From Paenibacillus durus ATCC 35681 (GTDB lineage Bacteria > Bacillota > Bacilli > Paenibacillales > Paenibacillaceae), in the NCBI RefSeq assembly GCF_000993825.1, contig NZ_CP011114.1, positions 806,001 to 870,000 of the forward strand: a stretch of DNA of 64,000 bases, given 5' to 3'. The number at the start of each line of letters is the position of its first letter. Within the stretch, counting starts at the first letter, position 1. Below the pieces are notes generated by a model, which searched no databases, was not told the origin of the DNA, and worked only from the letters and a program-made list of their open reading frames with translations. Of this stretch, positions 17,795-33,275 are shown piece by piece. Position numbers and translations under genes: made by a program.

Positions 17795-18627
17795 TGATCG
17801 GAAGATCGTATTCATTCAAATGGTTTGGCATCGAGCTGCTGGCATTCCTGCTGGCGCTGGTGTTTCTCTCTCCGTTCTATTTTGTCATCGTTAACTCGTT
17901 TAAAAGCTTCGCGGAGCTGCTCACGGACACAGCGGGTCTTCCGGGGGTCCTGCATGTTGAAAACTATCTGAATGCCTGGAAAGCATTGAACTACCCTCAG
18001 GCTTTTAAAAATACGCTAATTATTACCATTTTCAGTAATTTGGGCTTGATTATTATTTCTTCTATGGCTGCGTACCGCCTGGTCCGCAATAAGAGCCGGA
18101 TGAATCGCATCTTGTTCTCCATGTTCATGCTGGCGATGGTCATTCCTTTTCAGTCGATTATGATTCCGATGGTGAAGATGTTTGGCTGGGTTAACCTGAT
18201 GAACACTTTTACCGGAGTGGTGATTGCTTACATGGGGATGGGGGTTTCCTTTACGCTGTTTCTGTTCAGCAGCTTCATTATAGCGATACCCAAAGAAATT
18301 GAAGAATCGGCGGTTGTTGACGGCTGTACGCCTTACGGCACCTTCTTTCGAATCATCGTTCCGCTGCTGAAGCCGATGACCGTTACCGTTCTCGTGCTTA
18401 ACAGCTTGTGGATTTGGAATGATTTCCTGCTGCCGATGCTTGTGCTGCAAAAACCTGGTCTTCAAACGATACAGACAGCCACCAGTTCCTTGTTCGGACA
18501 ATACATGACCCAATGGGATTTAGCGCTTGCGGTACTGGTTATGGGGATGGTCCCTGTCATGATCCTGTTCTTTATGGCGCAGCGTCATGTCATCCAGGGC
18601 ATTGCCGATGGAGCGGTAAAAGGATAA
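17794..18627 (+). CDS. Sugar-type ABC transporter permease (MalG/UgpE-like)
   Basis: 277 residues with six hydrophobic segments. The EAA motif, KEIEESAVVDGCTPYGTFFRIIVPLLKP, lies at about residues 167-195, where it docks the ATPase. The start codon ATG shares a base with the stop codon of the preceding permease. The C-terminal RHVIQGIADGAVKG is the standard ending of this family. It forms the transmembrane channel with the preceding permease; substrate as discussed for the binding protein. Confidence 0.9.
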   Translation: MIGRSYSFKWFGIELLAFLLALVFLSPFYFVIVNSFKSFAELLTDTAGLPGVLHVENYLNAWKALNYPQAFKNTLIITIFSNLGLIIISSMAAYRLVRNKSRMNRILFSMFMLAMVIPFQSIMIPMVKMFGWVNLMNTFTGVVIAYMGMGVSFTLFLFSSFIIAIPKEIEESAVVDGCTPYGTFFRIIVPLLKPMTVTVLVLNSLWIWNDFLLPMLVLQKPGLQTIQTATSSLFGQYMTQWDLALAVLVMGMVPVMILFFMAQRHVIQGIADGAVKG

Positions 18628-18712
18628 CCGCTTGTAAAATGTGAGTGTCATCCGACACCTTCATATATGCATCGTAACGAGAAAAAACAATTACAGGAGG
18701 GTTTAACAGATT

Positions 18713-20014
18713 ATGAAGCGTTCGTTCATCATTTCATGCGTCCTAGTGTTGATGTGTTGCTTGTTGGCCGCTTGCGGGGCCAATTCAAACAGCGGGGCCA
18801 ATACCGGCGCCGATGCTGCCGGTAACGGGGAATCGAACGCGCAGAAGGAAGTTACGATTAAGCTGTTCCAGCAGAAGGTGGAAATAGCCGAACAGCTTAA
18901 AGTATTGAAGGCCGAGTACGAGAAGACCCATCCGGGTGTCAAGATTGAGATTGAGTCTGTTCTGTCCAGCCAATATGGCACAAAACTGAAGGCTAAACTG
19001 GCGGCGAATGAAATGCCGGATATTTTCAATAACGGTGGATACAGCGATATGGATGTGTGGGCCGATCATCTTGAGGATCTGACGGATCAGCCTTGGGTGA
19101 GTGATGCTGTCGATTCCGCCAAGGCGCCGATGATGAAAGACGGCAAGCTGTACGGCTTCCCGTTGTCGCTGGAAGGGTCCGGACTTGTCTACAATAAAGA
19201 AATGTTCGCCAAAGCCGGAATTACCGAGCTGCCGAAGACGCTGTCCGAACTGGAAGAAGCGAGCACCAAGCTTAAAGCGCAAGGCTTTACGCCGTTTGTA
19301 AATGACTACGCCAGCGTATGGGATCTCGGGATTACAATATTTGATTCCTTTATGGCCAAGGTGCCGGATACGGATAAATTTATCGCGGACCTCAATAGCG
19401 GGGCGGCAACGTTTGCAGGCAACGATGTGTTCAAGGGGCTGCCGAAATATCTCGATATTGCAATGAAGTATGGCAATGCCAATCCGTTGACCACGGACTA
19501 CAACACGTCGATGACCTTGTTCGCCACCGGCCAGGGAGCCATGATTCCGGCGGGCAACTGGATTCAGCCGCTTATTGATAAAATCAATCCGAATATCCAG
19601 GCCGGACTAATGCCGATGCCGGTCAGCGATGATGCGGATTTTAACAAAAATGCGGTATTTACTTCGCCTACCATTTGGGTAGTGAATAAAAATTCACCGG
19701 TTAAGGAGCAGGCGAAGGAATTTTTGAACTGGCTCGTTACGTCCGATATTGGAAAACAATATGTAGCCAAGGAATTCAAGCTGGTTCCCGCTTTCAAGAG
19801 TATTAAGGCCGACCCGGCTGATGTGGGAAGTATCGGCGATGATCTGACGAAGTTTTCGGAGGAAGGAAATTCACTTCCGATGCAAGCGTCGAAAATGCCT
19901 GAAGGTCTATACACGGAAATTGCGCAGTCGATGCAGAAATACGTGGCCGGAAAATCGACTCCCGATCAAATGCTGGCCGAATTCCAGGCCTCCTGGAACA
20001 AGCTGAAAAAATAG
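18713..20014 (+). CDS. Extracellular solute-binding lipoprotein of sugar ABC importer
   Basis: 433 residues. The signal peptide ends in the lipobox LLAAC with lipidated cysteine 21, followed by a Gly/Ala/Asn-rich linker. The mature part has the two-lobed bacterial family-1 solute-binding fold (KLKAQGFTPFVNDYASVWD, GQGAMIPAGNWIQPLI). Family members bind oligosaccharides or glycosides outside the cell. It is the third gene of the importer and is followed by a hairpin at 20031. No sugar specificity can be read from the sequence. Confidence 0.92.
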   Translation: MKRSFIISCVLVLMCCLLAACGANSNSGANTGADAAGNGESNAQKEVTIKLFQQKVEIAEQLKVLKAEYEKTHPGVKIEIESVLSSQYGTKLKAKLAANEMPDIFNNGGYSDMDVWADHLEDLTDQPWVSDAVDSAKAPMMKDGKLYGFPLSLEGSGLVYNKEMFAKAGITELPKTLSELEEASTKLKAQGFTPFVNDYASVWDLGITIFDSFMAKVPDTDKFIADLNSGAATFAGNDVFKGLPKYLDIAMKYGNANPLTTDYNTSMTLFATGQGAMIPAGNWIQPLIDKINPNIQAGLMPMPVSDDADFNKNAVFTSPTIWVVNKNSPVKEQAKEFLNWLVTSDIGKQYVAKEFKLVPAFKSIKADPADVGSIGDDLTKFSEEGNSLPMQASKMPEGLYTEIAQSMQKYVAGKSTPDQMLAEFQASWNKLKK

Positions 20015-20219: not shown

Positions 20220-20912
20220 ATGACGCAGCAGCCCGACAAGCTAGTTAAAGAAACAACAACCATGGCCGTTTATAAAAGATTGTTTGACTACGTAATGAGC
20301 GGCCAGTTTGAACCGGGCATATGGATCAGGGAGCGCCAGCTCAAGGAGATGCTTGGTGTCAGCAGCACACCGATCAGGGAAGCGCTGAGAATGCTTGTAC
20401 AGGAGCAGGTGCTTGAATTGGTTCCCCATCACGGCGTCCGTATCAAAGAATACTCTACGAAAGAAATTCAGGATTATTACGAGCTTCGAGCCGAGCTCGA
20501 AGGCCTGGCTGCGGAGCTCGCGGCCGAGCGGGGAAGCAAGCTTATGTTCGGCAAGATGGAGGAGATTCTCTACCTGCACCGGACCTTTGAGACGGAACGC
20601 TCGGATGAAGCGATTGTGCTAAATAACCAGTTCCATGATCTCATTGTGGAGGCCAGCGGAAATCTCTCATTAAAAAATACGCTCCAGCATTTAAGAGTGG
20701 GGATTAACTGGATTCAAGTCATGGCATGGAGCCGCAATAAGGACCGGCATTTCAGCACCTTCCATCAGCACCAGGGCATTCTGGATGCGTTGACGGCCCG
20801 GAACCCGAAGCTGGCCCGTTACCGGATGCAGGAGCATGTATGGGATTCCATTAAACTCATTATAGAGCCGCCAGGCACGCTGCAAATGGCAGGAGAACTT
20901 CGAAAAAGTTAA
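20220..20912 (+). CDS. GntR-family regulator, FadR/FCD type (paralogue 2)
   Basis: 230 residues; ATG after CAAGGAG. Winged helix at the N-terminus (LKEMLGVSSTPIREALRMLVQ) and FCD domain with the LNNQFHDLIVEASGN metal-site motif. Strongly similar along its whole length to the regulator at 14819-15523. It starts the transcriptional run that contains the FAD monooxygenase, amidohydrolase and molybdenum-hydroxylase genes, so it is the best candidate for their local regulator. Its own promoter carries the palindrome shared with the ABC importer. Whether the two paralogues bind the same effector is unknown. Confidence 0.88.
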   Translation: MTQQPDKLVKETTTMAVYKRLFDYVMSGQFEPGIWIRERQLKEMLGVSSTPIREALRMLVQEQVLELVPHHGVRIKEYSTKEIQDYYELRAELEGLAAELAAERGSKLMFGKMEEILYLHRTFETERSDEAIVLNNQFHDLIVEASGNLSLKNTLQHLRVGINWIQVMAWSRNKDRHFSTFHQHQGILDALTARNPKLARYRMQEHVWDSIKLIIEPPGTLQMAGELRKS

Positions 20913-20946
20913 ACGGATGGTACGGAAGGGAGAGGTGATTGCATCT

Positions 20947-22212
20947 ATGGAGACGCCTAAGAACGAAGTGAAGACAGACGTATGCATTGTTGGAGCCGGT
21001 CCTGCCGGAATGCTGCTCGGCTTGCTGCTCGCCAAACAGGGAATTAACGTGATCGTACTGGAGAAGAATGCGGACTTTCACAGGGAATATCGCGGGGAAA
21101 TTACCCAGCCGCGTTTTGTCCAGATGATGAAGCAGCTTAACCTGCTTGACTATATTGAGAGCCACGACCATGTGAAGATCAATGAAGTGGTTGTATTCCA
21201 CGATCATAAGGAAATCATGCAGCTTTCCTTTGATACCTTAATTGACGAGGAGAGCTACTGTGCCAGACTGACCCAGCCGACAATGCTTGCAGCCCTCTTG
21301 GAGAAGGCCCGGCACTACCCGAACTTTAAGCTGCTGTTTAATACGAAAGTGAAAGACCTGATTAAAGACGGCGATAAAATCATCGGCGTTCATGCGGTGA
21401 GAACAGCAGGGGATTCTACAAACGCGGAGGAGCTGGCAGAGGAAGGGGATTTCGATATTCGCGCGGCGGTAACGGTTGCCGTGGACGGCCGGAATTCAAC
21501 GATGGAAAAGCTCGCCGGCTTCGAACTGGACCTCGACTATTATGTGAATGACCTGCTGTGGTTCTCGTTTGAGAAGCCGGAGTCATGGGACTATAACATT
21601 TACCACTTCTACTTCCAAAAAAACTACAATTATCTCTTCCTTCCCAAGCTGGGCGGACTCATCCAATGCGGAATTTCGCTCACAAGGGGCGAGTTTCAGA
21701 AGATCAAGGAAGAAGGCATTGAAGCCTTCAAAAGCCGGATTCTCGAAGACCTGCCCATTCTTAAACCTTATGTGGAGCCGATGGAAGACTTCAAGTCCTT
21801 TGTTCTGTTGTTATGCAAAATGCGGTATGTCAAGGACTGGGCCAAGGACGGCTGCCTGCTGATCGGCGATGCCGCCCACTGCGTCACTCCCTGGGGAGCG
21901 GTTGGCAGCACACTGGCGATGGGGACCGCAATTATTGCGGCGGATGTGATTTATAAAGGGTTCCGTACCGGCGATCTGTCGCTCGAAACGCTGAAGCAGG
22001 TTCAAGCAAGACGAAAGGATGAAGTGAAGATGATCCAGAATCTTCAGGTAACCCTGGAAAGATTCCTGACCCGGGAACCTGTCAAGAAGGATCTGGCCCC
22101 TCATATTTTCAGCATTTGCACCAAGCTCCCGGACATCACGGATACGTACAAGCGCCTCTATACGCGGGAGAAGCCGCTGGATATTGATCCTTCGTTCGTT
22201 TTTACCGACTAA
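20947..22212 (+). CDS. FAD-dependent aromatic-ring monooxygenase (PHBH/UbiH fold)
   Basis: 421 residues from the ATG at 20947, after GGGAGAGGTG; the frame is open to an ATG at 20917 that lacks a ribosome site. The FAD-binding Rossmann motif VGAGPAG lies at 15-21 with E39 ending strand 2; the class-A flavoprotein monooxygenase DG motif appears as VAVDGRNS, and the second FAD motif as LIGDAAH. Family: NAD(P)H-dependent hydroxylases of phenols, hydroxypyridines or urate. Neighbouring Mo hydroxylase and amidase genes fit hydroxylation of an already hydroxylated N-heteroaromatic ring. A urate hydroxylase (HpxO-like) role is a weaker alternative given the missing uricase. Confidence 0.85.
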   Translation: METPKNEVKTDVCIVGAGPAGMLLGLLLAKQGINVIVLEKNADFHREYRGEITQPRFVQMMKQLNLLDYIESHDHVKINEVVVFHDHKEIMQLSFDTLIDEESYCARLTQPTMLAALLEKARHYPNFKLLFNTKVKDLIKDGDKIIGVHAVRTAGDSTNAEELAEEGDFDIRAAVTVAVDGRNSTMEKLAGFELDLDYYVNDLLWFSFEKPESWDYNIYHFYFQKNYNYLFLPKLGGLIQCGISLTRGEFQKIKEEGIEAFKSRILEDLPILKPYVEPMEDFKSFVLLLCKMRYVKDWAKDGCLLIGDAAHCVTPWGAVGSTLAMGTAIIAADVIYKGFRTGDLSLETLKQVQARRKDEVKMIQNLQVTLERFLTREPVKKDLAPHIFSICTKLPDITDTYKRLYTREKPLDIDPSFVFTD

Positions 22213-22234
22213 TCGCCGAGAGGGAGAGGCATTT

Positions 22235-23050
22235 ATGTTCATTACAAAATATGACGGGCATCTGCACATTGTCAATCAATACGATCACTCCGTTCAGGCT
22301 GGACAGGTTGCGCGCCGCTGGGGAAATGGGCAGTTCCGGCGTCCGGATCATTTTGAGTCGATGTGTCTCGCCGTTGAGAAGCACGACATCGGCTGGGTCG
22401 AGTCGGACACGAAGGTACTGTTCAACCCGGAAACCGGACAACCCGTTCCGTTCTTAAGCGTCAATCTGCTCCAGCATGTCGAGTTCTACGGCAAGGGATT
22501 TGAGCAGGTCAGGGATGAAGACCCGTATGCCGGACTGCTCGTGGGCATGCACTGGATCGGACTGTACACCAACCGGTTCGGGTATGATCCGTCGTTTACA
22601 TTCAAAATTCCAGGTGAACTGGCTTCGCTTATTGACGAGAATACGATCAGACAGCAGAAGGAATGGGTCGATCTGAAGATGGCCCTGTGGAACCGCGCGG
22701 AGCGAAGAAGCCTGTTCGAAGATAACCTGTGGATGAACTATGAATTGGTACAGATGATGGACCGCTTGTCCCAGTACGTATCTATGCTGACTCAGGATAC
22801 GAAGGAGAAGTGGGTTCTTGGTCCGGTTCGCCAGACGCTTGGTTCCGAGGGTGAAATGATTACGGTTCAGGGGCAGGGGAACGGCGTTGTTGCCGTCGAT
22901 CCGTTCCCGTTCGATTCGGTTGTGGAAACGACCGTGCTGCGGCGCAAAATTCCCGATACCCGCTACGCTTCGCATGAGGAGCTTTACGAAGTGATGGAGA
23001 AGGCCGAGACCGAGGAGGTTGTCTGGAAGCTGGTTCCGGCTGAGACTTGA
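22235..23050 (+). CDS. DUF3891 family protein, function unknown
   Basis: 271 residues from the ATG at 22235, after GAGGGAGAGG. The sequence matches my recollection of the DUF3891 family. It is rich in conserved histidines and acidic residues in its first half: YDHSVQAGQVA near residue 20, EKHDIGWVES near 50 and LVGMHWIGLYTNRFGYD near 104-120. The H-x-x and HD-like pairs resemble a metal-dependent phosphohydrolase or hydrolase site, but I know of no assigned function. It follows the monooxygenase by 22 bases and precedes a hairpin repeat, so it is probably part of the same pathway. Confidence 0.7.
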   Translation: MFITKYDGHLHIVNQYDHSVQAGQVARRWGNGQFRRPDHFESMCLAVEKHDIGWVESDTKVLFNPETGQPVPFLSVNLLQHVEFYGKGFEQVRDEDPYAGLLVGMHWIGLYTNRFGYDPSFTFKIPGELASLIDENTIRQQKEWVDLKMALWNRAERRSLFEDNLWMNYELVQMMDRLSQYVSMLTQDTKEKWVLGPVRQTLGSEGEMITVQGQGNGVVAVDPFPFDSVVETTVLRRKIPDTRYASHEELYEVMEKAETEEVVWKLVPAET

Positions 23051-23101
23051 TCATGGATTCCATACCGGATTACGCATATCGGCATTTTGTAAAATGCCCA
23101 T

Positions 23102-23312
23102 CTATATAAGATGAACTTGAAAATGACATCAGGGTAAGGAGTTGCGAAGGGGAAGTTTGGAACTGTAGGAGCGACAGCGACCGCCTTTGTCTCCGGATTT
23201 CATCCGCGAAGAGCGGTTTAAATCAAGAAATCTGGAGACAACAGCGGCCGGAAGTCCAAACATTCCTCGTAGTTACGACTGATATGTGATGGAAAATCTT
23301 AAGTTCATCTTA
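23102..23312. repeat. MITE-like hairpin repeat, copy 1
   Basis: Bounded by TAAGATGAACTT (23107-23118) and its exact inverse AAGTTCATCTTA (23301-23312). The interior is itself palindromic: GTTTGGA pairs with TCCAAAC, GTCTCCGGATTT with AAATCTGGAGAC, and a CCGC/GCGG helix forms the tip, so the element can fold into one long arm. A second copy with the same ends lies at 63725-63980. It encodes no protein and separates DUF3891 from the DsrE-like gene. Probable non-autonomous mobile element or structured intergenic repeat. Confidence 0.85.
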
Positions 23313-23336
23313 AATAACTAACGGGAGGGAAATGAC

Positions 23337-23708
23337 ATGGCCAAAATTTTAATTCATCTTACGCATGGACCTGAAGCGCCGACTCAGGCCGATCGGGCGT
23401 TTCTTATCGCCAAGACCGCCATTCAGGAAGGACATTTCGTCTCCATGTTTCTTGCAGGGAGCGCCGTTCAGCTTCTGCGTGACGATATCCTGGACAGTGT
23501 GATCGGAGTGGGAGACGGCGTGACGACCGTACGTGAATCCTATGATGCAATTATTGGAGGCGGAGGGGCCATTTATCTCTCCCGGATATCCTGCGGCGCG
23601 CGGGGGATGACGGAGAAGGAGCTGAGTGGCAAGCAGGTCCAGCTTGCAGAACCGAATGTGCTGGTGCGTCTGACCGTCGATCATGACCGGGTTATTACCT
23701 ACGGATAA
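23337..23708 (+). CDS. DsrE-family protein
   Basis: 123 residues with a small alpha/beta fold: AKILIHLTHGPEAPTQADRAFLIAKTAIQEGHFVSMFLAG is the usual DsrE/DsrF-like start. Family members bind or carry sulfur, or act as small subunits of unknown role. The cysteine usually used by sulfur carriers is not in the canonical place; the only cysteine visible is in RISCGARGM near residue 84. ATG after GGAGGG. Twelve bases separate it from the amidohydrolase gene, so they are co-translated. A link to the aromatic pathway is inferred only from position. Confidence 0.75.
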   Translation: MAKILIHLTHGPEAPTQADRAFLIAKTAIQEGHFVSMFLAGSAVQLLRDDILDSVIGVGDGVTTVRESYDAIIGGGGAIYLSRISCGARGMTEKELSGKQVQLAEPNVLVRLTVDHDRVITYG

Positions 23709-23720
23709 GGAGGATTGCTC

Positions 23721-24416
23721 GTGGCGCGAATCTGGGACAACTATCTGGATGAACGGGACAAGAGGGTATATGCAAAGGCCGGTCTAGGCCATGCAATGGG
23801 CATCGGCAGCCGTCCGGCCCTGATTATTGTGGATGTGCAGTACGGATTCACCGGCGATTCACCGGAGAGTATCGAGGAATCCATTCAGAAATACCCGACG
23901 AGCTGCGGGGAAAGCAGCTGGGAAGCGATTACGCATATCAAGGAACTGCTGACGGCCGCAAGACAGGCCGGAATTCCGGTGTTCTTCACGATTATTGAGG
24001 GCAGCAGGTCCGCTCCGAATGACCGGATCGCCATTAAAGGCAACATTTTCGATCACCCCGAGCTGCTTGAAGGCGCAAAGGGAGCGCAGGTGGTCAGCGA
24101 GCTTGAGCCGCAATATGGCGAAATCGTCATCTCCAAAAAGAAGCCGAGCGCGTTCTTCGGAACGCCGCTGATATCATACCTGACGGCCCGCCATGTCGAT
24201 TCGGTCATCGTGACGGGCTGTACGACAAGCGGCTGTGTGCGCGCTTCTGTCATTGATGCTTTTTCCAATAATTTTAAAGTCATTGTCCCGGAGGAATGCG
24301 CGTTTGACCGCGGCATTGCCTCTCATGCAATCAATCTCTTCGATATGCAGCAGAAATATGCGGATGTCGTGCCGGTAGCCGAAGTAATCGCGGAACTGAA
24401 ACCATTGAGCGTTTAA
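23721..24416 (+). CDS. Isochorismatase-fold amidohydrolase (N-carbamoylsarcosine/maleamate amidase type)
   Basis: 231 residues from the GTG at 23721, seven bases after AAGGAGG; a TTG at 23715 is too close to that site. The cysteine-hydrolase triad is visible: D38 in IIVDVQYGF, a lysine in SKKKPSAFFG (about 140) and nucleophile C172 in TGCTTSGCVRAS. The N-terminal IWDNYLDERDKRVY segment is characteristic of the N-carbamoylsarcosine amidohydrolase/NicF (maleamate amidase) branch rather than of nicotinamidases. In nicotinate degradation this branch releases ammonia from maleamate; creatinine degradation is the alternative. The Mo hydroxylase neighbours favour an N-heteroaromatic route. Confidence 0.87.
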   Translation: MARIWDNYLDERDKRVYAKAGLGHAMGIGSRPALIIVDVQYGFTGDSPESIEESIQKYPTSCGESSWEAITHIKELLTAARQAGIPVFFTIIEGSRSAPNDRIAIKGNIFDHPELLEGAKGAQVVSELEPQYGEIVISKKKPSAFFGTPLISYLTARHVDSVIVTGCTTSGCVRASVIDAFSNNFKVIVPEECAFDRGIASHAINLFDMQQKYADVVPVAEVIAELKPLSV

Positions 24417-24470
24417 TAGGACAAGCAGCCGTTTAACCAAAAACTTGGGCAGCAGAAATGGAGGATACTT

Positions 24471-24905
24471 ATGGAGGTTCAAGGTGAAGTAAAGGTGAAA
24501 GCGGGAAAAGAAGCGGTGTGGAAGGCGCTTAACGATCCTGACGTACTGAAAAAGGCCACGCCGGGCTGCAATTCGATTACGGAGACGGAGCCGGATACGT
24601 ACAAGGCCGATATTACGATCGGCATTGCAGCGGTGCGCGGCAGCTATGAGGCGGAGATTAAAATTCTCGACAAGGATGAGCCGGAGAATTACCGCCTTGT
24701 TATGAAGGCGAACAGTCCGGCCGGATTCATCGAAGGCGACGCCCGCGTTGAGCTTCAGTCCGAGAGCGATTCGGTGACGATTATCAAATATGACGGAACG
24801 GCCCAGGTGGGCGGCCTGATTGCCGGAGTGGGCCAGCGCATTCTGTCCGGGATCGGCAAGATGATTGTAAAAGACTTCTTCAAGAAGCTGGCGAAGGAAG
24901 TGTAA
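24471..24905 (+). CDS. CoxG/SRPBCC-family protein (Mo-hydroxylase accessory)
   Basis: 144 residues of SRPBCC (START-like) fold: EVQGEVKVKAGKEAVWKALNDPDVLKKATPGC is the standard beginning of carbon monoxide dehydrogenase subunit G proteins, and the C-terminal helix (GQRILSGIGKMIVKDFFKKL) closes the hydrophobic pocket. CoxG-like genes commonly accompany molybdenum hydroxylases, where they may recruit the enzyme to the membrane or bind hydrophobic ligand. It stands directly before the FAD, 2Fe-2S and Mo subunit genes, 21 bases away. The C-terminal membrane helix of classical CoxG is absent. Confidence 0.88.
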   Translation: MEVQGEVKVKAGKEAVWKALNDPDVLKKATPGCNSITETEPDTYKADITIGIAAVRGSYEAEIKILDKDEPENYRLVMKANSPAGFIEGDARVELQSESDSVTIIKYDGTAQVGGLIAGVGQRILSGIGKMIVKDFFKKLAKEV

Positions 24906-24926
24906 GGAAGGGAGGAGCCGCACACA

Positions 24927-25799
24927 ATGAAACCCGCAGCGTTCGATTATTATAGACCGGAAACATTGGATGAAGTCTTATCTCTACTGGATGAGTTCGG
25001 ATATGACGCCAAAATTTTGGCGGGAGGGCAAAGCCTGATTCCGATGATGAATATGCGGCTGGCCAGACCGCCGGTGCTGATTGATATTAACGGCGTTCCG
25101 GGCATGACCGGAATTGAAGTCGGCGACAGCGAGATTGTCATCGGGGGGCTGACCCGTCATTACATGGTGGAGCACTCCGCAGAGATTCGGGATAGCTGCC
25201 CGATGCTCGCGGAAGGCATCAAGCTGATCGGGCACTCGCAGATTCGCTCCCGTGGAACGATTGGCGGCAGCATCGTACACGCGGACCCTACGGCGGAGCT
25301 TCCGGTTATGCTGACGGCACTCGGCGGGAAAGTGACCGTTGTGTCGAGCGAAGATGAGCGGGAATTGACTCCGGAGGAACTGTTCCTGACCTATATGACG
25401 ACAACGATTGAACCTAATGAAATTGTCAAATCCGTGCATTTTCCCGTCATTGCGGAACGGACAGGCCATGCGATTGAAGAGTTTACCCTGCGCAGCGGCG
25501 ACTTCGCTATCATAATCGCCGCAGCCTCCGTTACGCTGGATGAGGAAGGTCTGATAGAGAGCGCTACGCTCTGCATCGGCGGAGTGGACGGCGTTCCGGT
25601 CAAGCTGGACGATGTCACTGACGAGCTGATCGGCCAAGCTCCGAGCGATGAATTGTTCGCGGAGAGCTGCGCCCCAATCGTGGATATGGTCGAGCCGGAG
25701 AAGGATATACACGCCAGCGTCGAGTACCGCAAGGATTTATGCGTGGCGTTAAGCCGCCGAGTGCTGAAAAAAGCCGCAGACGAAGCAAAACTGGTCTGA
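24927..25799 (+). CDS. Molybdenum hydroxylase FAD subunit (CoxM-like)
   Basis: 290 residues. KPAAFDYYRPETLDEVLSLL begins the FAD-binding PCMH domain; AGGQSLIPMMNMRLARP is the pyrophosphate-binding motif at about 33-49, and GTIGGSIVHADPTAELP at about 110 is the second FAD motif. The C-terminal CO_deh_flav domain ends with DIHASVEYRKDLCVALSRRVL, the same region preserved in the remnant at 982. Transfers electrons from the 2Fe-2S subunit to the final acceptor. It is the only intact FAD subunit in the window, so both large subunits (26337 and 30933) probably share it. Confidence 0.93.
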   Translation: MKPAAFDYYRPETLDEVLSLLDEFGYDAKILAGGQSLIPMMNMRLARPPVLIDINGVPGMTGIEVGDSEIVIGGLTRHYMVEHSAEIRDSCPMLAEGIKLIGHSQIRSRGTIGGSIVHADPTAELPVMLTALGGKVTVVSSEDERELTPEELFLTYMTTTIEPNEIVKSVHFPVIAERTGHAIEEFTLRSGDFAIIIAAASVTLDEEGLIESATLCIGGVDGVPVKLDDVTDELIGQAPSDELFAESCAPIVDMVEPEKDIHASVEYRKDLCVALSRRVLKKAADEAKLV

Positions 25800-25825
25800 C
25801 AGGAAGAAAGGGAGGATGAGCGTCC

Positions 25826-26335
25826 ATGACGGAAAAAACCGCAGAATCGAGCCGGTTGAAGACGATAACGTTGAAGGTCAACCAGAAGGAATATACGGTT
25901 GATGTGGAGCCTCGCATGCTGCTGTCCGATGTCCTGCGCGACGAACTGAGGCTTACGGGAACGCATGTAGGCTGTGAGCACGGCGTATGCGGAGCCTGTA
26001 CGATTATGATGGACGGTCGGCCCGTCCGGTCCTGTCTCGTGTTCGGCGTTCAAGCGGATCAGGCGGACATCGTGACCGTTGAAGGACTGGAAAGCCAGGA
26101 CGGGGAGCTTCATCCGCTGCAAAATGGCTTCTGGGAAAAGCACGGACTGCAATGCGGATTTTGCACGCCGGGCATGCTGATGACGGCTTGTCACCTGCTG
26201 GAGCATAATCCGGACCCGAGCCGTGAGGAAATCCGCGAAGCGATCTCCGGCAACTTGTGCCGCTGTACAGGATATCAGGGGATTGTCGATGCGGTGGAAT
26301 ACGCGGCTAAAGAAATGAGGGAAAGGGCGGAGTGA
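25826..26335 (+). CDS. Molybdenum hydroxylase 2Fe-2S subunit (CoxS-like)
   Basis: 169 residues. All eight cluster cysteines are present: C50, C55, C58 and C70 for the plant-ferredoxin-type cluster, and C110, C113, C145 and C147 for the second cluster (CGFCTPGM and NLCRCTGY). The N-terminus is about ten residues longer than in the shortest homologues. The stop precedes the large-subunit ATG by one base, so coupling is tight. Carries electrons from the molybdenum site to FAD. The same SGNLCRC-GY block survives in the remnant at 1216-1356. Confidence 0.95.
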   Translation: MTEKTAESSRLKTITLKVNQKEYTVDVEPRMLLSDVLRDELRLTGTHVGCEHGVCGACTIMMDGRPVRSCLVFGVQADQADIVTVEGLESQDGELHPLQNGFWEKHGLQCGFCTPGMLMTACHLLEHNPDPSREEIREAISGNLCRCTGYQGIVDAVEYAAKEMRERAE

Positions 26336-26336
26336 C

Positions 26337-28631
26337 ATGTCGATTGGGGCAAGTCTGAAACGGCTGGAGGATTATAATCTCGTAACGGGCAGAGGGCAAT
26401 ATGTCGGCGATCTGCAATTTCCGGATCAATGCGAAGCCGTGATCATCCGGTCCCCGCATGCGCATGCGATCATTCGTTCCATCGACGCGGAAGAGGCCCG
26501 TGGTCTTGACGGGGTGCTCCTGATTCTGACGGCGTCCGACCTGCCGGACGACCTGCGTCCGATCCCGATGCGGCTCTCTCCGGACCCGATCCTTGAAAAG
26601 GCTCTGCAATATCCGCTGGCAAAAGACCGCGTCCGTTACGTGGGCGACCCAGTGGCCGTTATTGTGGCGAAGAACCGCTATGTAGCCGAGGACGCTGCGG
26701 ATTTCATCCATATCGAATATGAAGTGCTGCCTCCGGTTACGGATGCGGTTCAATCGCTGGAGCCGGGGGCGCCGATCCTTCATCCCGATGCGGGTACGAA
26801 TGAAATGTACCTGATTCACGGCAGGAAGGGAGAGGCGGCGGAGCGGCTGAAGACGTGCGAGCATGTGCTGGAGGAGGAGCTTTACGTACAGCGGCACTCC
26901 GGCATTCCGATGGAAACGAGAGGGCTGCTTGCGCTATGCGATGAGGACGAGCGGCTGACGGTATACGGAGCCGCGAAGGTTGTCCATTTCAATCATCAGC
27001 TGATGGCCCGGCTGCTGAACAAGAATATAGACGAAATCCGGCTGGTTGAAACGGATTGCGGCGGCGGCTTCGGGCCGCGCGGCGAATTTTACCCGGAAGA
27101 CTATTTAATTCCGTTCGCCGCCATACAGCTGAAGCGTCCGGTCAGGTGGATCGAGGACCGTCTGGAACATTTCAAAGCGACCAACCACTCCAGAGAACAG
27201 AAGCACCGGGTAACGGTCGGCTTTGACGGCGACGGACGGATTTATGCGCTGCGGGATGAAATCTTCTTCGACCAGGGCGGGTATATCCGCACGCATGGCA
27301 CGACCGTGCCGTCTTTAACCCAGGCCATGTTCCCAGGGCCATACGATTTCAGCGACATTGAAATCGTAACGCATTTGGTATTGACCAACAAGACGCCGGT
27401 TGGAACGTACCGGGGGCCGGGACGTTTCGAGGGGACGTTTGTCCGCGAGCGGGTCATCGACATGGTCGCTGCGCATTTGAAGCTGGACCCCACCATAGTC
27501 AGGGAACGAAATTACATTCGTCCCGAACAGATGCCCTACAGCAACGGGCTGTCCGCACTCGGTCAAGTCATTGAATATGACAGCGGCGACTATGCCGAGA
27601 CACTTGACCGCGCCCGGAAGTTCATGGGCTGGGAGCAGTTTGCCGGGAAGCAGTCCAGGGCCAGGCAGGAAGGTCGCTTTATCGGCCTCGGCTTTGCCTC
27701 CTTTGTGGAAAAGTCGGGCTTTGGCCCGTGGGAGTTTGCCGAGGTGGAGATGCGGCCGGACGGCCGGGTGATTTGCAAGACCGGTCTGACGGAGGTCGGT
27801 CAGGGGATTACAACGACACTGGCGCAAATTTGCAGCGATCAGCTTGGTATTCCTTACAGCGATGTCAGCGTCGTTCACGGCGATACCGCGCTTGTGGAGA
27901 AGGGCAACGGCTCATTCGCCACGCGCGGAGCGGTTGTTGGCGGATCGGCCGCCTGGCACGCGGCCGGATTGCTGAAAGAGAAGCTGCTGAAGGTTGCGGC
28001 CGAGCAGCTTAAGGTTCCGGTGGACATGCTCGCCCTCAAGGACGGGGGCGTGGTGTATGCCGAAGCGGGGCAGGCCGCTATGCCGCTGGAAGAATTACTG
28101 ACGATTTGCTCGGACCTTGGCATTTCGCTGTGTGAGAAATACACGTTCCATATCGAGCATATGACTTATCCTTACGGCTGCCACGCTGCCGAAGTGGAGC
28201 TTGATCCCGACACAGGGGCGCTGCAAATTTTGAAATATTATATTGCCTATGATCTTGGCAAGGCGATCAACCCGATGCTTGTGGAGGGCCAGCTCATTGG
28301 CGGAATGGCCCAGGGACTCGGAGGCGCCATGTACGAGAATCTGAAATATGATGAAATCGGACAGCTTGTGTCCGGCAGCTTCATGGATTATCTGATTCCA
28401 ACCTCAATGGAAGTGCCGGAGGTCACCACCGAGATTCTGGAGAACTATCCTTCGCCGCTGAACCCGCTAGGGGTAAAGGGCGCGGGAGAAGGCGGAACGG
28501 TAGCCGTAGCCCCCGCGATTGCCAATGCGATCGTAAACGCGCTGCAGGAATACGCTATTCCGTTTACGTCTCTGCCCCTTCGGCCCGAACGCATTCGCGA
28601 GGCACTCAAACAAATGAAGCCGGAGAGGTGA
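26337..28631 (+). CDS. Molybdenum hydroxylase large subunit 1 (CoxL/XdhA-like)
   Basis: 764 residues. The N-terminal Ald_Xan_dh_C domain (GRGQYVGDLQFPDQCEA...AHAIIRS) is followed by two molybdopterin-binding regions. GGGFGPRGEFYPEDY near residue 242, TYRGPGRFEGTF near 360, and VKGAGEGGTVAVAPAIANA near 713 mark the cofactor contacts; the glutamate of GAGE is the catalytic base of the family. Hydroxylates an aromatic or aldehyde carbon using water. The window has a second large subunit at 30933 but one M/S pair, implying two substrates served by common electron-transfer subunits. Xanthine as substrate is possible but not indicated by any residue I can read. Confidence 0.92.
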   Translation: MSIGASLKRLEDYNLVTGRGQYVGDLQFPDQCEAVIIRSPHAHAIIRSIDAEEARGLDGVLLILTASDLPDDLRPIPMRLSPDPILEKALQYPLAKDRVRYVGDPVAVIVAKNRYVAEDAADFIHIEYEVLPPVTDAVQSLEPGAPILHPDAGTNEMYLIHGRKGEAAERLKTCEHVLEEELYVQRHSGIPMETRGLLALCDEDERLTVYGAAKVVHFNHQLMARLLNKNIDEIRLVETDCGGGFGPRGEFYPEDYLIPFAAIQLKRPVRWIEDRLEHFKATNHSREQKHRVTVGFDGDGRIYALRDEIFFDQGGYIRTHGTTVPSLTQAMFPGPYDFSDIEIVTHLVLTNKTPVGTYRGPGRFEGTFVRERVIDMVAAHLKLDPTIVRERNYIRPEQMPYSNGLSALGQVIEYDSGDYAETLDRARKFMGWEQFAGKQSRARQEGRFIGLGFASFVEKSGFGPWEFAEVEMRPDGRVICKTGLTEVGQGITTTLAQICSDQLGIPYSDVSVVHGDTALVEKGNGSFATRGAVVGGSAAWHAAGLLKEKLLKVAAEQLKVPVDMLALKDGGVVYAEAGQAAMPLEELLTICSDLGISLCEKYTFHIEHMTYPYGCHAAEVELDPDTGALQILKYYIAYDLGKAINPMLVEGQLIGGMAQGLGGAMYENLKYDEIGQLVSGSFMDYLIPTSMEVPEVTTEILENYPSPLNPLGVKGAGEGGTVAVAPAIANAIVNALQEYAIPFTSLPLRPERIREALKQMKPER

Positions 28632-28641
28632 TCCAAGCGAG

Positions 28642-30915
28642 ATGAATTCACTGGCGGAAAAGTGGCTTGGGCAATTAACGTTGGATGAGAAAATCAGCTT
28701 GGTCGCGGGAAAAGATCTTTGGGGCACAAGCGCCGTTGAACGGCTCGGGATTCCATCGCTCTGCATGACTGATGGTCCTCATGGAGTGAGGAAGGAGCAG
28801 GATGGCACGCTGCTTGGCCTCAGCAAGCCGGCCACCTGTTTCCCGACTTCGTCCGGACTGGCCTCTTCCTGGAATGTGGAGCTGATGGAACAGATCGGCG
28901 TAAGCCTGGGAAAAGAATGCCGGCAACTGGGCGTTCAAATCTTGCTGGGACCCGGCATTAACATGAAGCGCTCGCCTCTGTGCGGCAGGAATTTCGAATA
29001 TTATTCGGAAGATCCCTTCTTGGCGGGAGAAATGGCTGCGGCGTTCATCAGAGGGGTTCAGAGCCGGAACATCGGCACGTCATTGAAGCATTTTGCCTGC
29101 TACAATACCGAATTCGAGCGGATGACGATCAGTTCGGAAGTGGATGAACGAACGATGAGGGAGATCTATTTGGCTGCCTTTGAGCGTGTGGTCAAGAAAG
29201 CCGCGCCTTGGTCGATTATGAGCTCCTACAATAAAGTAAATGGAACCTATGCTTCGGAAAACCGGTTGCTGCTGACAGATATTCTTCGCGGGGAATGGAA
29301 TTTTAGCGGGTTCGTGATGTCCGACTGGCTGGCGGTTAATGACCGGGTAAAAGCTCTTCAGGCCGGACTCGATTTGGAGATGCCAGGCCCTGCCCTGTCA
29401 AACGCCAAGCAGCTCAAAGAAGCCTTGCACTCGGGCGAGCTTACCGAGGAGACACTGGATGGGGCGGTTCTGAATGTACTGTCGGCCGTGGAGAAAAGCC
29501 TTCGGGGCACAGGGCCCGCTCCTGACAATCTTGACTGGAGCCTGGAGCAAGCCCACCGGCTTGCCCGGACAGCGGCCGAAGAGAGCATGGTGCTGCTCAA
29601 GAATGACAATCGTCTTCTGCCGCTTGAGCCATCCGGGCTGCCTTCAATCGCAATTATCGGAAGAAATGCGAAGTTCCCGTTAATTCAGGGGGGTGGAAGC
29701 TCCAGTATCAATCCGTCATTCTTGGAAATTCCTTTCGATGAGATTGTAAAAATACTGGACCCCGGGACGCAGATTATCTATGCGGATGGCTATGATGAGG
29801 ATGGCGCGGACAACCAAGGGCTGATTTCTGAAGCGGTTCGTGCAGCTCTTCAGGCGGAGGTCGTCCTTCTGTTTGCGGGCAGCACGGAGCTTGAGGGAAA
29901 CGACAGGGAGAACATGGATTTACCTGCCGGACATTCAGCGCTGCTGCAAGCTGTGGCATCTGTTCATAAATCCTGTGTTGTTGTGCTGAATAACGGGTCT
30001 GCCGTAGATATGCGCGGGTGGATCTCGGATGCGTCCGCCGTGCTTGAGGTATGGCTTCCCGGGCAGGCAGGCGGCAGTGCCTTGGCTCGTCTATTGTTCG
30101 GGGAGGCGAATCCTTCCGGTAAACTGGCGGAGACTTTTCCGGTGAAACTGTCAGACAATCCGTCTTATCTGAATTTTCCAGGCGACAACGGCAAGACGGT
30201 GTATGGCGAAGGATTATTTATCGGATACCGTTATTATGACCGCAAAGAGATTGAGCCGTTGTTTCCATTCGGGTATGGCTTGTCCTACACAAGCTTTGAT
30301 TATACGGATCTTGAGGTTGTCCGGAAACCGGAAGAAGGCTGCTTCGCCGTGTCGGTCAAGGTAACGAATACCGGGAGCAGATGCGGGAAAGAAATTGTCC
30401 AGTTGTACGTATCCGACCCGGATTGCGAGCTGGTTCGCCCGGACCGGGAATTGAAGGGATTCGCTAAGGTTGAGCTCTCACCGGGTGAAACACAGACCGT
30501 TACACTGCAATTAGAAAAACGCGACTTCTCCTATTACCATCCGGCTGCCGGAGGCTGGACGGCCGACAGTGGAGACTTTGTTCTGTCCATTGGAGCTTCT
30601 TCGCGCGACATTCGCCTGTCCACGCGCGTTCATATTGAATTCATTCATATTGAATTCACTGGTAAGACCGAAATAACGCTTGACGCAAACAGCCTTCTGA
30701 AGCAGTGGCTTAAGACTGAGCGAGGCTTGCAGGCTGTCCGCTACTTGGCTGAGCATGTTGCGGAAGATGAGAACCTGAAAGAGACGATTCTGGCCGGGAA
30801 GCTGAGAGGCTTTTTCCTGGAGATGCCTTTGTGGAGATTTATCAAGCTTCTGTCCAAAGATGGAACGGCGGAGCGCTGGTCCGACCGGATGATGGAAGAG
30901 TTGTTCGGTCTATAG
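28642..30915 (+). CDS. GH3 beta-glucosidase-type glycoside hydrolase
   Basis: 757 residues, no signal peptide, so cytoplasmic. The N-terminal (alpha/beta)8 domain has the nucleophile aspartate in GFVMSDWLAV (about residue 231) and substrate-binding GRNFEYYSEDPFLAG and SLKHFACYN motifs; the C-terminal alpha/beta sandwich contains QGGGSSSINPS; a fibronectin-III-like domain follows (LELSPGETQTVTLQLE-like strands), and then a 90-residue helical tail. Retaining beta-glycosidases of this layout cleave beta-glucosides or xylosides. It lies between two molybdenum-hydroxylase large subunits, ten bases after the first, which is unusual and suggests release of an aglycone that the hydroxylases attack. 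A 15-base tandem repeat lies near its end. Confidence 0.9.
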   Translation: MNSLAEKWLGQLTLDEKISLVAGKDLWGTSAVERLGIPSLCMTDGPHGVRKEQDGTLLGLSKPATCFPTSSGLASSWNVELMEQIGVSLGKECRQLGVQILLGPGINMKRSPLCGRNFEYYSEDPFLAGEMAAAFIRGVQSRNIGTSLKHFACYNTEFERMTISSEVDERTMREIYLAAFERVVKKAAPWSIMSSYNKVNGTYASENRLLLTDILRGEWNFSGFVMSDWLAVNDRVKALQAGLDLEMPGPALSNAKQLKEALHSGELTEETLDGAVLNVLSAVEKSLRGTGPAPDNLDWSLEQAHRLARTAAEESMVLLKNDNRLLPLEPSGLPSIAIIGRNAKFPLIQGGGSSSINPSFLEIPFDEIVKILDPGTQIIYADGYDEDGADNQGLISEAVRAALQAEVVLLFAGSTELEGNDRENMDLPAGHSALLQAVASVHKSCVVVLNNGSAVDMRGWISDASAVLEVWLPGQAGGSALARLLFGEANPSGKLAETFPVKLSDNPSYLNFPGDNGKTVYGEGLFIGYRYYDRKEIEPLFPFGYGLSYTSFDYTDLEVVRKPEEGCFAVSVKVTNTGSRCGKEIVQLYVSDPDCELVRPDRELKGFAKVELSPGETQTVTLQLEKRDFSYYHPAAGGWTADSGDFVLSIGASSRDIRLSTRVHIEFIHIEFTGKTEITLDANSLLKQWLKTERGLQAVRYLAEHVAEDENLKETILAGKLRGFFLEMPLWRFIKLLSKDGTAERWSDRMMEELFGL
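30631..30660 (+). repeat. 15-base tandem duplication inside GH3 gene
   Basis: CATATTGAATTCATT at 30631-30645 is followed by CATATTGAATTCACT at 30646-30660, producing the peptide repeat HIEFI/HIEFT between the FnIII-like domain and the helical tail. In-frame, so it does not break the gene. Confidence 0.9.
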
Positions 30916-30932
30916 ACTGTGGAGGTGAAGGA

Positions 30933-33275
30933 ATGAAGTATATAGGTCAGTCCATGAAACGGAAAATTGATCCGCGATTGACCAGGGGACAGGGGCGATA
31001 TATTGCCGATATTCATATGGACGGAGCGCTCAGCGCCGCTTTTCTGCGCAGCACGCATGCACATGCCCATATTACGGAAATCGACCTGGAGCAGGCGAGA
31101 AATCTGCCAGGGGTCGTAGCGGTATTCGGCCCGGATGAAGCGGCGGATCTCCCCTGCCTGCCTGTTGTATTTCCCAATCCCAATCTGATATCCGTTACCC
31201 AGCGGCCGCTTGACAGAACCGTTCACCATGTCGGCGAGCCGGTTGCCATGGTCATCGCGGCCTCCAGATATATAGCCGAAGACGCAGTAGGTCTGATCAA
31301 AATCAAATATGAGAAGCTCCCTGCCGTTTCCTTTCTGGAAGACGCCGCGCGTCCCGGAGCGCCACTCGCCCACCAGCATATGGAATCCAATCTGGCGATG
31401 CACATCAATCAGTCGATCGGCAATGCTCATGAAAAGATGAAGGAGGCCGATGTTATTGTCAGCCACCGGTTTGAAATCGGCCGGGTGAGCTGTCTGCCGA
31501 TTGAGACGCGCGGGCTCCTCGCGAAGTGGAGCCATCACCAGCCGGAACCTATGCTGGAAGTGTACGCCGCGACGCAGAGCCAGCATGAAATGCGTAAAAT
31601 TCTGTCGGAAACGTTCCGGATCTCGGAACACCAGGTCCGGGTCATTGCCCCGGATGTCGGAGGCGCTTTTGGCGCGAAGGCTCCGTTCTATGTGGAGGAC
31701 ATGCTCGTTCCGTGGGCCTCGCTTCAGGTGGGCGCTCCGGTGAGCTGGATCGAGGACCGGATGGAGCATATGATGAGCTGCATCCATGAGCGCGAACAGA
31801 TTCACGAGGCGACGCTCGGCGTAACCCGGGAGGGTAAGATTGTAGCGGTAATCGATAAAGGTCTGGCGAGTACGGGCGCATACGTACCTTGGGGCGTGAT
31901 TGTTCCCATCATTACCTCTTCGCTGATCCCCGGCCCGTACCGCGTGACCGACTATGCCTGCGAAATCGACGTCTTCTATACAAATACGGTTCCGCTCGCG
32001 CCGTACCGGGGAGCGGGAAGACCGCAGGCGGCCATGATTCTGAACCGCTTGCTGGATGAAGCGGCCCATGAGTTGAATATGGACCCGCTTGAAATTAAAC
32101 GCCGCAATCTGATTCAGGCGGATGAATTTCCGTACCGCACCGGTCTACTGTCAAGAGACGGGAAGCCCCAGATTTACGATAGCGGCAATTTTCCCAAGCT
32201 TGTAGAAACCGTACAATTGGAAGGGGAGTACGCGCGGTGGCGCATGCTTCAGGAGGAGTACAGGAAGCAAGGCAGAAATGTCGGAATCGGAACGGTCGTC
32301 TGTATCGAGAACACCGGCTTCGGCAATTATGAAGGGGCGACCGTCCGCGTGGAGGATACGGGCGAAGTGACGGTGTTTACAGGCGCCGCCACCCAGGGGC
32401 AGGGGCATGAAACGTCTCTGGCCCAGGTTGCGGCGGAAGTGCTGGATGTCCCGCTTGAGAAGGTGATCGTCCGGGAAGGCGACACGAGCCTCTTTCCGTA
32501 CGGCACCGGCACATTCGCCAGCAGGATTGCGACCATTGCGGGCAACGCAGTGTACAAGGCTGCCCAGAAGGTGAAGCAGCATGCGCTCCGGCTCGCTGCG
32601 CATGAGCTGAATGTACCGGAAAGCGCACTTGAATTGGCGGGCGGGTATATCCGCAAAAAAGACGAGCCCGGTATACACATTACACTGGGAGCCCTGTCCC
32701 ATGCGGCGAAGGGGGGCGCTCCGGGGAAAACCTATGATCTTCCAACCGACCCGATGCTGGAGGCAACCGATTATTTTGCTCCCGAGGGTGCGGCCATTAC
32801 GTCGATGTCCGATATGGCTGTCGTCGAGGTGGAACCCGAGACGCTGCAAATCAAGGTTTTGCATTATTTATCGGTTCACGACAGCGGCAAGCTGCTTAAT
32901 CCGCTGATTGTGACCGGGCAGTATCAGGGCGGCATATCGAATGGAATCGGCAACGCCTTATATGAAGAAATTGTCTACGACCGGGAAGGGCAGCTTCTTA
33001 CGAGCAGCCTGATGGATTATCTCGTCCCTTCTTCCACAGAAATTCCGGAAATGACGATTCATCATATTGAAACGCCGTCTCCGCTGAATCCGCTAGGAGT
33101 CAAAGGAGCAGGGGAAAGCGGGTCGATACCGGTTCTCGCCGTCATTCAGTCGGCCGTTCAGGATGCGCTGCGGCACACGGGCGTCAAAATTCATAAAATA
33201 CCGGTTAAACCTTTGTATCTGAAGGAGCAATTGAGCAAAGCGGCGTTGGAACAAGGTGAAGTTGCCATTCAATAA
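30933..33275 (+). CDS. Molybdenum hydroxylase large subunit 2 (CoxL-like)
   Basis: 780 residues from the ATG at 30933, after GTGGAGGTGAAGGA; the frame extends upstream into the GH3 gene but has no start there. MKYIGQSMKRKIDPRLTRGQGRYIADI is the usual large-subunit N-terminus. Cofactor contacts: GGAFGAKAPFYVEDM (about 245), APYRGAGRPQAAM (about 355), TQGQGHETSLAQVAAEVL, and VKGAGESGSIPV near the end, with the catalytic glutamate present. Clearly different in sequence from large subunit 1 (for example GAFGAK against GGFGPR), so a second substrate or a second hydroxylation position is likely. It has no FAD or 2Fe-2S genes of its own. A strong terminator follows at 33336. Confidence 0.92.
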   Translation: MKYIGQSMKRKIDPRLTRGQGRYIADIHMDGALSAAFLRSTHAHAHITEIDLEQARNLPGVVAVFGPDEAADLPCLPVVFPNPNLISVTQRPLDRTVHHVGEPVAMVIAASRYIAEDAVGLIKIKYEKLPAVSFLEDAARPGAPLAHQHMESNLAMHINQSIGNAHEKMKEADVIVSHRFEIGRVSCLPIETRGLLAKWSHHQPEPMLEVYAATQSQHEMRKILSETFRISEHQVRVIAPDVGGAFGAKAPFYVEDMLVPWASLQVGAPVSWIEDRMEHMMSCIHEREQIHEATLGVTREGKIVAVIDKGLASTGAYVPWGVIVPIITSSLIPGPYRVTDYACEIDVFYTNTVPLAPYRGAGRPQAAMILNRLLDEAAHELNMDPLEIKRRNLIQADEFPYRTGLLSRDGKPQIYDSGNFPKLVETVQLEGEYARWRMLQEEYRKQGRNVGIGTVVCIENTGFGNYEGATVRVEDTGEVTVFTGAATQGQGHETSLAQVAAEVLDVPLEKVIVREGDTSLFPYGTGTFASRIATIAGNAVYKAAQKVKQHALRLAAHELNVPESALELAGGYIRKKDEPGIHITLGALSHAAKGGAPGKTYDLPTDPMLEATDYFAPEGAAITSMSDMAVVEVEPETLQIKVLHYLSVHDSGKLLNPLIVTGQYQGGISNGIGNALYEEIVYDREGQLLTSSLMDYLVPSSTEIPEMTIHHIETPSPLNPLGVKGAGESGSIPVLAVIQSAVQDALRHTGVKIHKIPVKPLYLKEQLSKAALEQGEVAIQ

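Follow-up and report, generated by a model that had tools for sequence, protein, structure and literature searches.

We analysed a window of 64,000 nucleotides (positions 806,001 to 870,000 of contig NZ_CP011114.1) in the one-contig 5.58 Mb genome of Paenibacillus durus ATCC 35681, a strain very near P. zanthoxyli and P. forsythiae. The window contains an operon with genes for two molybdenum hydroxylase large subunits, L1 and L2, together with one FAD subunit (M) and one 2Fe-2S subunit (S). We propose, with a probability of about 0.7, that this operon serves nicotinate catabolism of the Bacillus niacini type. Read from its sequence, the cluster represents a known pathway in a variant form, to which two features are added: a GH3 glycosidase and a DUF3891 protein as candidate for the opening of the ring. 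The GH3 gene, the sugar-type ATP-binding cassette (ABC) transporters beside the operon and DUF3891 as a more specific ring-opening candidate are new beyond an earlier note on this DNA (the original prediction). The classic Bacillus nicotinate pathway would thereby gain a conserved small candidate ring opener (DUF3891, with DsrE) and an assignment of L1 and L2.

One operon with two large subunits and one M/S pair

The genes were assigned with Pfam and follow each other in this order:

20220..20912, plus strand: GntR/FCD regulator (Pfam), directly 5' of the monooxygenase in 6/6 relatives examined
20917..22212 (alternative start 20947), plus strand: FAD monooxygenase (Pfam FAD_binding_3), proposed to convert 2,6-dihydroxynicotinate to 2,3,6-trihydroxypyridine
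22235..23050, plus strand: DUF3891, probable HD-superfamily protein (H18, H50-D51, H81, H106, D176), proposed ring-opening oxygenase
23103..23316, no strand given: repeat like a miniature inverted-repeat transposable element (MITE), with 16-nt terminal inverted repeats, inside the operon and not part of the pathway
23337..23708, plus strand: DsrE-family protein (Pfam), member of the DsrE-amidase-DUF3891 module
23715..24416, plus strand: isochorismatase-family amidase (Pfam), proposed maleamate amidohydrolase
24471..24905, plus strand: CoxG-like protein (Pfam)
24927..25799, plus strand: FAD subunit (M) of the molybdenum hydroxylases (Pfam/NCBIfam)
25826..26335, plus strand: 2Fe-2S subunit (S) of the molybdenum hydroxylases (Pfam/NCBIfam)
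26337..28631, plus strand: large subunit L1, KdhL-like, proposed 6-hydroxynicotinate dehydrogenase
28642..30915, plus strand: GH3 glycosidase between L1 and L2, proposed nicotinate N-glycosidase
30933..33275 (open frame from 30831), plus strand: large subunit L2, proposed nicotinate dehydrogenase

From GntR/FCD to L2, the successive intergenic gaps are 4, 22, 286, 6, 54, 21, 26, 1, 10 and 17 bp. The 286 bp gap is located upstream of DsrE and contains the repeat element; the others measure 1-54 bp. The genes from the FAD monooxygenase through L2, including the one M, the one S and the two distinct large subunits, form one operon. The original prediction had described these subunits, each large one with the catalytic glutamate, and also CoxG, the FAD monooxygenase, a maleamate/N-carbamoylsarcosine-type amidase, DsrE and DUF3891. 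All were confirmed by Pfam, the amidase as a member of the isochorismatase family, and L1 and L2 are of full length, each with a C-terminal G-A-G-E motif (Glu718 in L1; Glu762 in L2, numbered from the start at 30831). That both large subunits share one M/S pair holds within the operon; they are not adjacent, and the GH3 gene between them had been missed. In the entire genome MoCoBD_1 matched exactly two proteins, L1 and L2, while further M or S genes outside the operon were not searched for.

The arrangement was compared in seven loci: the window, P. zanthoxyli (L001), P. forsythiae (L002), G666 (L065), P. sabinae G686 (L066), G690 (L067) and P. beijingensis G088 (L010/L011). GntR, monooxygenase, DUF3891, DsrE, amidase, CoxG, M, S, L1 and L2 were found in identical order in all seven. 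L1 is 98% identical to its counterpart in P. zanthoxyli and 97% to that in P. forsythiae. With P. beijingensis the identities are 84% for the monooxygenase, 77% for DUF3891, 85% for DsrE, 78% for the amidase, 86% for CoxG, 82% for M, 86% for S, 83% for L1, 69% for GH3 and 83% for L2. Since the same order, GH3 included, is kept at 69-86% protein identity, the arrangement is not due to chance. A search of the genus found the monooxygenase in 6 of 100 genomes, our own included. When the family was sampled evenly, L1 relatives at E 1e-100 or better occurred in 4/295 genomes, again with our own, and an L1 ortholog only in P. beijingensis and our strain. The operon is rare and patchy, yet stable.

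Two more large subunits, 38-39% identical to L1, are encoded in a second cluster of P. beijingensis (L012 7182-17374), along with an M-like subunit, an amino-acid-type ABC transporter and a purine/allantoin-type permease.

The case for nicotinate

The monooxygenase has 29 relatives at 72-98% identity (P0128-P0156), including proteins of Neobacillus niacini, N. mesonae, N. kokaensis, Niallia, Peribacillus and Fictibacillus. The nearest named ones outside Paenibacillus come from Neobacillus (N. niacini at 74%), Niallia, Peribacillus, Fictibacillus and other Bacillaceae at 73-78%; after P0156 (73%) a fragment with 61% follows and then 44%. For the amidase, the nearest named relatives outside Paenibacillus belong to the same Bacillaceae at 74-80%, with further N. 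niacini amidases at 64-68%. Thirteen of the 29 monooxygenase relatives apparently lie on the same contig as an amidase relative, including contigs of 4,616 and 8,628 bases, as judged by eye with contigs of equal size taken as identical. The monooxygenase matched the PDB entry 8uiu, 'Flavin monooxygenase', with 740 bits over residues 11-431. We take this entry to be from B. niacini, its source organism not being confirmed by any tool; a literature search for the codes 8UIU, 8URC and 8URD found nothing related, as judged by title. Several amidase relatives are named maleamate amidohydrolase by their source (jgi). D40, a Lys at 141-143 and C174 of the amidase, presumably its Asp/Lys/Cys triad, align with solved members of the isochorismatase fold, and its scores with the RutB and biuret hydrolase models were far below the cut-off. 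Amidase relatives at 48-50% identity in two other genomes, G044 (19 kb read) and G452 (3.9 kb read), adjoin transporter genes, and no DsrE or DUF3891 relatives were found beside them in these stretches.

The 2014 genome announcement of B. niacini DSM 2923 reports 13 genes on a 12,852-bp contig, including nicF-like and nicE-like genes, a pair of molybdenum oxidoreductases and an iron-sulfur protein (PMC4256190). The operon shares with this cluster the nicF-like amidase, the molybdenum oxidoreductase pair and the iron-sulfur protein, and its monooxygenase and amidase have N. niacini relatives. In contrast to B. niacini, GH3 is inserted between the large subunits, a GntR/FCD regulator stands in place of the TetR and IclR regulators, and no nicE-like gene was seen beside the operon. 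According to the accessible part of PMC9304392, Bacillus makes 2,3,6-trihydroxypyridine from 2,6-dihydroxynicotinate. Because the monooxygenase and the amidase have their relatives in N. niacini and its allies, and because two molybdenum and one flavin hydroxylation suit nicotinate, nicotinate or a close pyridine carboxylate is the likely substrate. The Bacillus-type nicotinate logic of the original prediction is thus the best fit, also in view of the grouping of L1 with KdhL described below, but the pathway as such is not new, as the 2014 announcement shows.

Some observations speak against this assignment. The best solved match of the amidase is an N-carbamoylsarcosine amidohydrolase (124.7 bits). 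The maleate isomerase family PF17645 had no match in our genome, where 14 controls were silent too, and B. niacini has a nicE-like gene (PMC4256190). The likeness to B. niacini is one of protein relatives. Class-wide searches found the monooxygenase in 1/398 genomes, our own, a paralogue from N. ginsengisoli in 7/388 (best 52%) and an N. niacini amidase in 3/388 (own genome included), none of these searches reaching a Neobacillus neighbourhood; a further search for such a neighbourhood within one family gave 0/11 genomes.

The best solved relative of L1 is 6-hydroxypseudooxynicotine dehydrogenase (519 bits) and that of L2 is quinoline 2-oxidoreductase (466 bits). In a tree of 23 large subunits, with the E. 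coli XdhA as the only xanthine dehydrogenase, the L1 orthologues and the L2 orthologues each formed one group (100/100). L1 joined KdhL of pAO1 and a Variovorax protein (99/98 support), L2 stood apart, and the long-branched XdhA remained outside. The L1-KdhL join was among those that the tree tool marked as meetings of long branches, which counts against the grouping. KDH hydroxylates C2 of a 6-hydroxypyridine with a carbonyl at C3. Since this matches the chemistry required on 6-hydroxynicotinate, we slightly favour L2 for the first hydroxylation, on nicotinate, and L1 for the second, on 6-hydroxynicotinate. Aerobic carbon monoxide dehydrogenase (CoxL) was rejected for both subunits: NF040766 gave 672.8 for L1 and 778.5 for L2 at a cut-off of 950, TIGR02416 gave 432.8 and 455.8 at 991.15, and the active-site loops read TYRGPGR and PYRGAGR, in place of the Cys loop we take to mark CoxL.

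For the operon we infer the following reactions. Nicotinate N-glycosides, once imported, would be stripped of their sugar by GH3. L2, together with M and S, would hydroxylate nicotinate at C6, and L1 with the same M and S would hydroxylate 6-hydroxynicotinate at C2. The flavin monooxygenase would then hydroxylate and decarboxylate 2,6-dihydroxynicotinate to 2,3,6-trihydroxypyridine. DUF3891, possibly with DsrE, would cleave the C2-C3 bond with O2 to N-carboxymaleamate, giving maleamate and CO2, and the amidase would release maleate and ammonia. The pAO1 nicotine cluster of Paenarthrobacter (NdhABC, KdhABC, DhpH) likewise leads to 2,3,6-trihydroxypyridine by molybdenum and flavin hydroxylations of the pyridine ring. 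It differs in that NdhC and KdhC have their own A and B subunits each, and in its proposed cyclase-family ring opener, which is absent from the operon.

It was considered whether L1 and L2 are the missing xanthine or hypoxanthine dehydrogenase of a purine cluster just upstream. PucR-like, XdhC-like and MobA-like genes (L016 12520-15742, immediately upstream of the window) and ureide-like genes (window 1360-8407) were recognised there by eye with no structural dehydrogenase seen, and L1 and L2 are the only MoCoBD_1 matches of the genome. However, enzymes of the molybdenum hydroxylase superfamily generally need XdhC-type help, and the operon partners and their relatives indicate pyridine catabolism. 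The listed xanthine dehydrogenase equivalog models remained far below their cut-offs (NF043082: L1 415.9, L2 410.5, cut-off 780) and the single, long-branched XdhA fell outside in the tree. A clustering of both subunits with xanthine dehydrogenases, which would have refuted the original prediction, was not seen here; an additional argument from purine-binding residues was dropped, as E. coli XdhA itself lacks the residues we had expected. A purine role is therefore very improbable. It is unlikely that the substrate is another N-heteroaromatic compound (a quinoline, a hydroxypyridine or a pyrimidine glycoside) whose pathway feeds into this lower module. Quinoline 2-oxidoreductase as the best solved relative of L2 would agree with such a substrate, GH3 would suit a glycoside, and in the genome G027 the lower module occurs with a Rieske dioxygenase. 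The N. niacini-type monooxygenase and amidase and the two molybdenum and one flavin hydroxylation fit nicotinate instead.

DUF3891, a candidate for the opening of the ring

In an alignment of 39 DUF3891 sequences Q15, H18, H50, D51, W54 and F73 are invariant, and D176 is present in 38, with a gap in the other. The operon protein has the complete motif H..HD..H..H..D (H18, H50-D51, H81, H106, D176). At position 81, 6 of the 39 sequences have His, 3 have Trp and the remaining 30 have K or R. After near-copies and one truncated sequence had been left out, a profile of 28 sequences was aligned to an HD profile built from the 17 HD matches of the own genome. The HD dyads were in register with a score of 30.6 (P 0.0011). 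None of 60 block-shuffled HD profiles reached this score (maximum 20.8), the reversed profile gave 10.8 and four unrelated profiles 13.8-22.6. DUF3891 is probably an HD-superfamily protein. MIOX, PhnZ and TmpB are HD oxygenases with the H..HD..H..H..D motif that cleave C-C or C-P bonds, according to the accessible part of PMC8177086, and such a cleavage with O2 would suit the step needed here; DUF3891 differs from them in having no PDB match, its likeness being read from the sequence. The required step would break a C-C bond next to two oxygens, using O2 but no reductant. As this is chemistry of the HD-oxygenase type, we tentatively name DUF3891 as the ring opener, at somewhat less than even odds.

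The linkage of the gene is in line with this role. The operon-type DUF3891 subfamily was found in 3/290 genomes of the family, namely our own, P. beijingensis and G027, and DsrE and amidase relatives were adjacent to it in all three. In G027 the DsrE-amidase-DUF3891 trio (L058 7448-16497) is 49, 53 and 39% identical to ours. Behind it come genes for a zinc-type dehydrogenase, the alpha and beta subunits of a Rieske oxygenase and a TRAP transporter; the 20 kb showed no relative of the monooxygenase or the molybdenum enzymes. In Rhodococcus PY11, the 2-hydroxypyridine route presumably forms 2,3,6-trihydroxypyridine by an oxygenase and a dehydrogenase. In the accessible part of PMC6214936 this compound is an intermediate of that route. 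That two unlike upper routes, one with molybdenum enzymes and one with a Rieske oxygenase, meet one lower module suggests such a trihydroxypyridine as the starting point of the trio. The proposal of the original prediction that DUF3891 or DsrE opens the ring is thus supported by a linked module, not by an activity. It is possible, if rather doubtful taken as a whole, that the operon DUF3891 is a new HD diiron ring-cleaving dioxygenase for 2,3,6-trihydroxypyridine, that the DsrE-amidase-DUF3891 module is common to molybdenum and Rieske pathways, and that it may be fed by GH3 in Paenibacillus.

A number of results tell against DUF3891 as an HD oxygenase. The hhalign probability of the HD alignment was only 20%. 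Of three HD sub-profiles one gave 28.9, and the other two, with 21.2 and 17.5, fell inside the span of the unrelated controls, so that the signal depends mainly on one HD set. H81 is aligned three residues before the third His of the template, and His at this position also occurs in an Azospirillum DUF3891 with none of the other operon genes nearby. The predicted model was poor (mean predicted local distance difference test score 40; three near-identical rows), and its fold search gave no match at E 0.001 or better. Sequence and profile searches against the PDB found no match. Hydrolases of the HD superfamily can carry very similar motifs, and in the accessible part of PMC8177086 the cofactor and substrate of HD proteins are described as not inferable from sequence alone.

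Alternatively, the flavin monooxygenase, DsrE or a cyclase-type hydrolase encoded elsewhere could open the ring while DUF3891 has another function, and this has nearly an even chance. Some flavin monooxygenases do open pyridine rings. For pAO1 a cyclase-family protein was proposed to open 2,3,6-trihydroxypyridine, its relative being HpoH of Rhodococcus PY11 (accessible part of PMC6214936). Among the operon genes, however, there is no cyclase-family gene, the rest of the genome not having been searched for one, and the G027 trio has no monooxygenase relative in its 20 kb. A literature search for the term DUF3891 found nothing, and that for a ring-opening gene of Bacillus nicotinate breakdown found none, the gene cluster being only announced in the papers reached.

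Other occurrences of these genes were also recorded. Four of seven plasmid records with DUF3891 matches were read (two Haladaptatus, Halocatena and Azospirillum brasilense), as were both with DsrE matches (Deinococcus deserti and Microvirga), and none had another operon gene at E 1e-8. An ordinary DUF3891 paralogue is located elsewhere in our genome (G000:C1:3688380-3689072), and DUF3891 family matches occur in 64/118 genomes of the family.

The GH3 glycosidase and the neighbouring genes

The GH3 protein has the N- and C-terminal GH3 domains and an Fn3-like domain (Pfam), and no signal peptide was seen by eye. These domains are common to beta-glucosidases and exo-alpha-L-arabinopyranosidase, but its best NCBIfam model, the exo-alpha-L-arabinopyranosidase NF041610, gave 768.9 at a cut-off of 1300, so the equivalog level was not reached and the substrate was not assigned. 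GH3 is intact in five of the seven loci, the window included, frameshifted in G666, either truly or by an assembly error, and absent in P. sabinae. As it is lost or broken in two loci, GH3 is accessory to the operon. By eye, the P. sabinae junction retains the last GH3 codons 5' of L2. These C-terminal codons indicate that an ancestor of P. sabinae carried GH3 there and lost it by deletion. The ratio of nonsynonymous to synonymous substitution rates (dN/dS) of GH3 between the window and its relatives was 0.115 (L001), 0.180 (L002), 0.123 (L067) and 0.076 (P. beijingensis, with dS saturated), and that of L2 was 0.051-0.080, the P. beijingensis comparison covering half of L2 only. GH3 is constrained, though less than L2. 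Among the 120 best GH3 relatives listed, those with at least 69% identity come from P. zanthoxyli, P. forsythiae and P. beijingensis and the rest are at 59% or below. Of the 13 contigs common to the monooxygenase and amidase lists, P. beijingensis alone recurs among these 120, as judged by eye. GH3 seems to have been added in Paenibacillus to a pathway of wider occurrence.

Further features lie in the neighbourhood of the operon:

16832..20014, plus strand: ABC1, a sugar-type ABC transporter, with permeases at 16832-17794 and 17794-18627 and a solute-binding protein at 18713-20014 (Pfam/NCBIfam)
13622..14662, plus strand: MoaA, molybdenum cofactor synthesis
36444..37301, plus strand: ModA, molybdate-binding protein

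ABC1 is directly upstream of the operon in the window and in P. zanthoxyli. A different sugar-type transporter, ABC2, takes this place in the other five of the seven loci (P. forsythiae, P. beijingensis, P. sabinae, G666 and G690). In G690 it is preceded by the end of an ABC1 binding protein, and in P. beijingensis the ABC1 permeases, 71% identical, recur about 12 kb downstream of L2.

Plants form a nicotinate N-glucoside and N-pentosides, and UGT76C5 prefers UDP-xylose and UDP-arabinose, as given in the accessible part of PMC6776627; conjugation to N-glycosides is also described in that of PMC13184244. Because plants conjugate nicotinate in this way, we raise, with reserve, the possibility that GH3 hydrolyses N-glycosides of plant origin and so releases nicotinate. 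Rhizosphere bacteria would in that case use plant-made nicotinate glycosides. Several facts argue the other way. A tobacco nicotine-glucoside glucosidase rejects nicotinate N-glucoside (accessible part of PMC13184244), and such an activity is not to be presumed. The lack of GH3 in P. sabinae and the frameshift in G666 mean that the rest of the operon is independent of GH3, which may serve sugars only, and P. sabinae retains the sugar-type transporter ABC2 without it. A literature search on Paenibacillus, nicotinate and glycoside hydrolases found nothing relevant, as judged by title. GH3 might also be a hitch-hiker from the surrounding sugar genes with no part in pyridine breakdown, which is well conceivable though short of an even chance. 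Sugar genes (GH13, LacI, sugar ABC transporters) flank the operon, and in addition to the two defective loci the dN/dS among close relatives is 0.12-0.18, against 0.05 for L2. Against a hitch-hiker stand the gaps of only 10 and 17 bp to L1 and L2, its unchanged position in P. beijingensis, where the protein is 69% identical and dN/dS is 0.076 (dS saturated), and the GH3 codons at the P. sabinae junction, which show by eye that the ancestor had the gene.

An alpha/beta hydrolase gene was seen before ABC2 in G666 (L065 641-1759), P. sabinae (L066 590-1720) and G690 (L067 548-1675). The L065 copy has a Pfam match to Abhydrolase_3 and the other two were recognised by eye; the enzyme could act on nicotinate esters. 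The MITE-like element in the DUF3891-DsrE gap is about 215 bp long and has 36 matches in the own genome, of which 25, including this one, are near full length; another copy is found in the window near 63725-63978. The same insertion is present in G690 at 97.5%, whereas the gap measures only 21-90 bp in the five other loci.

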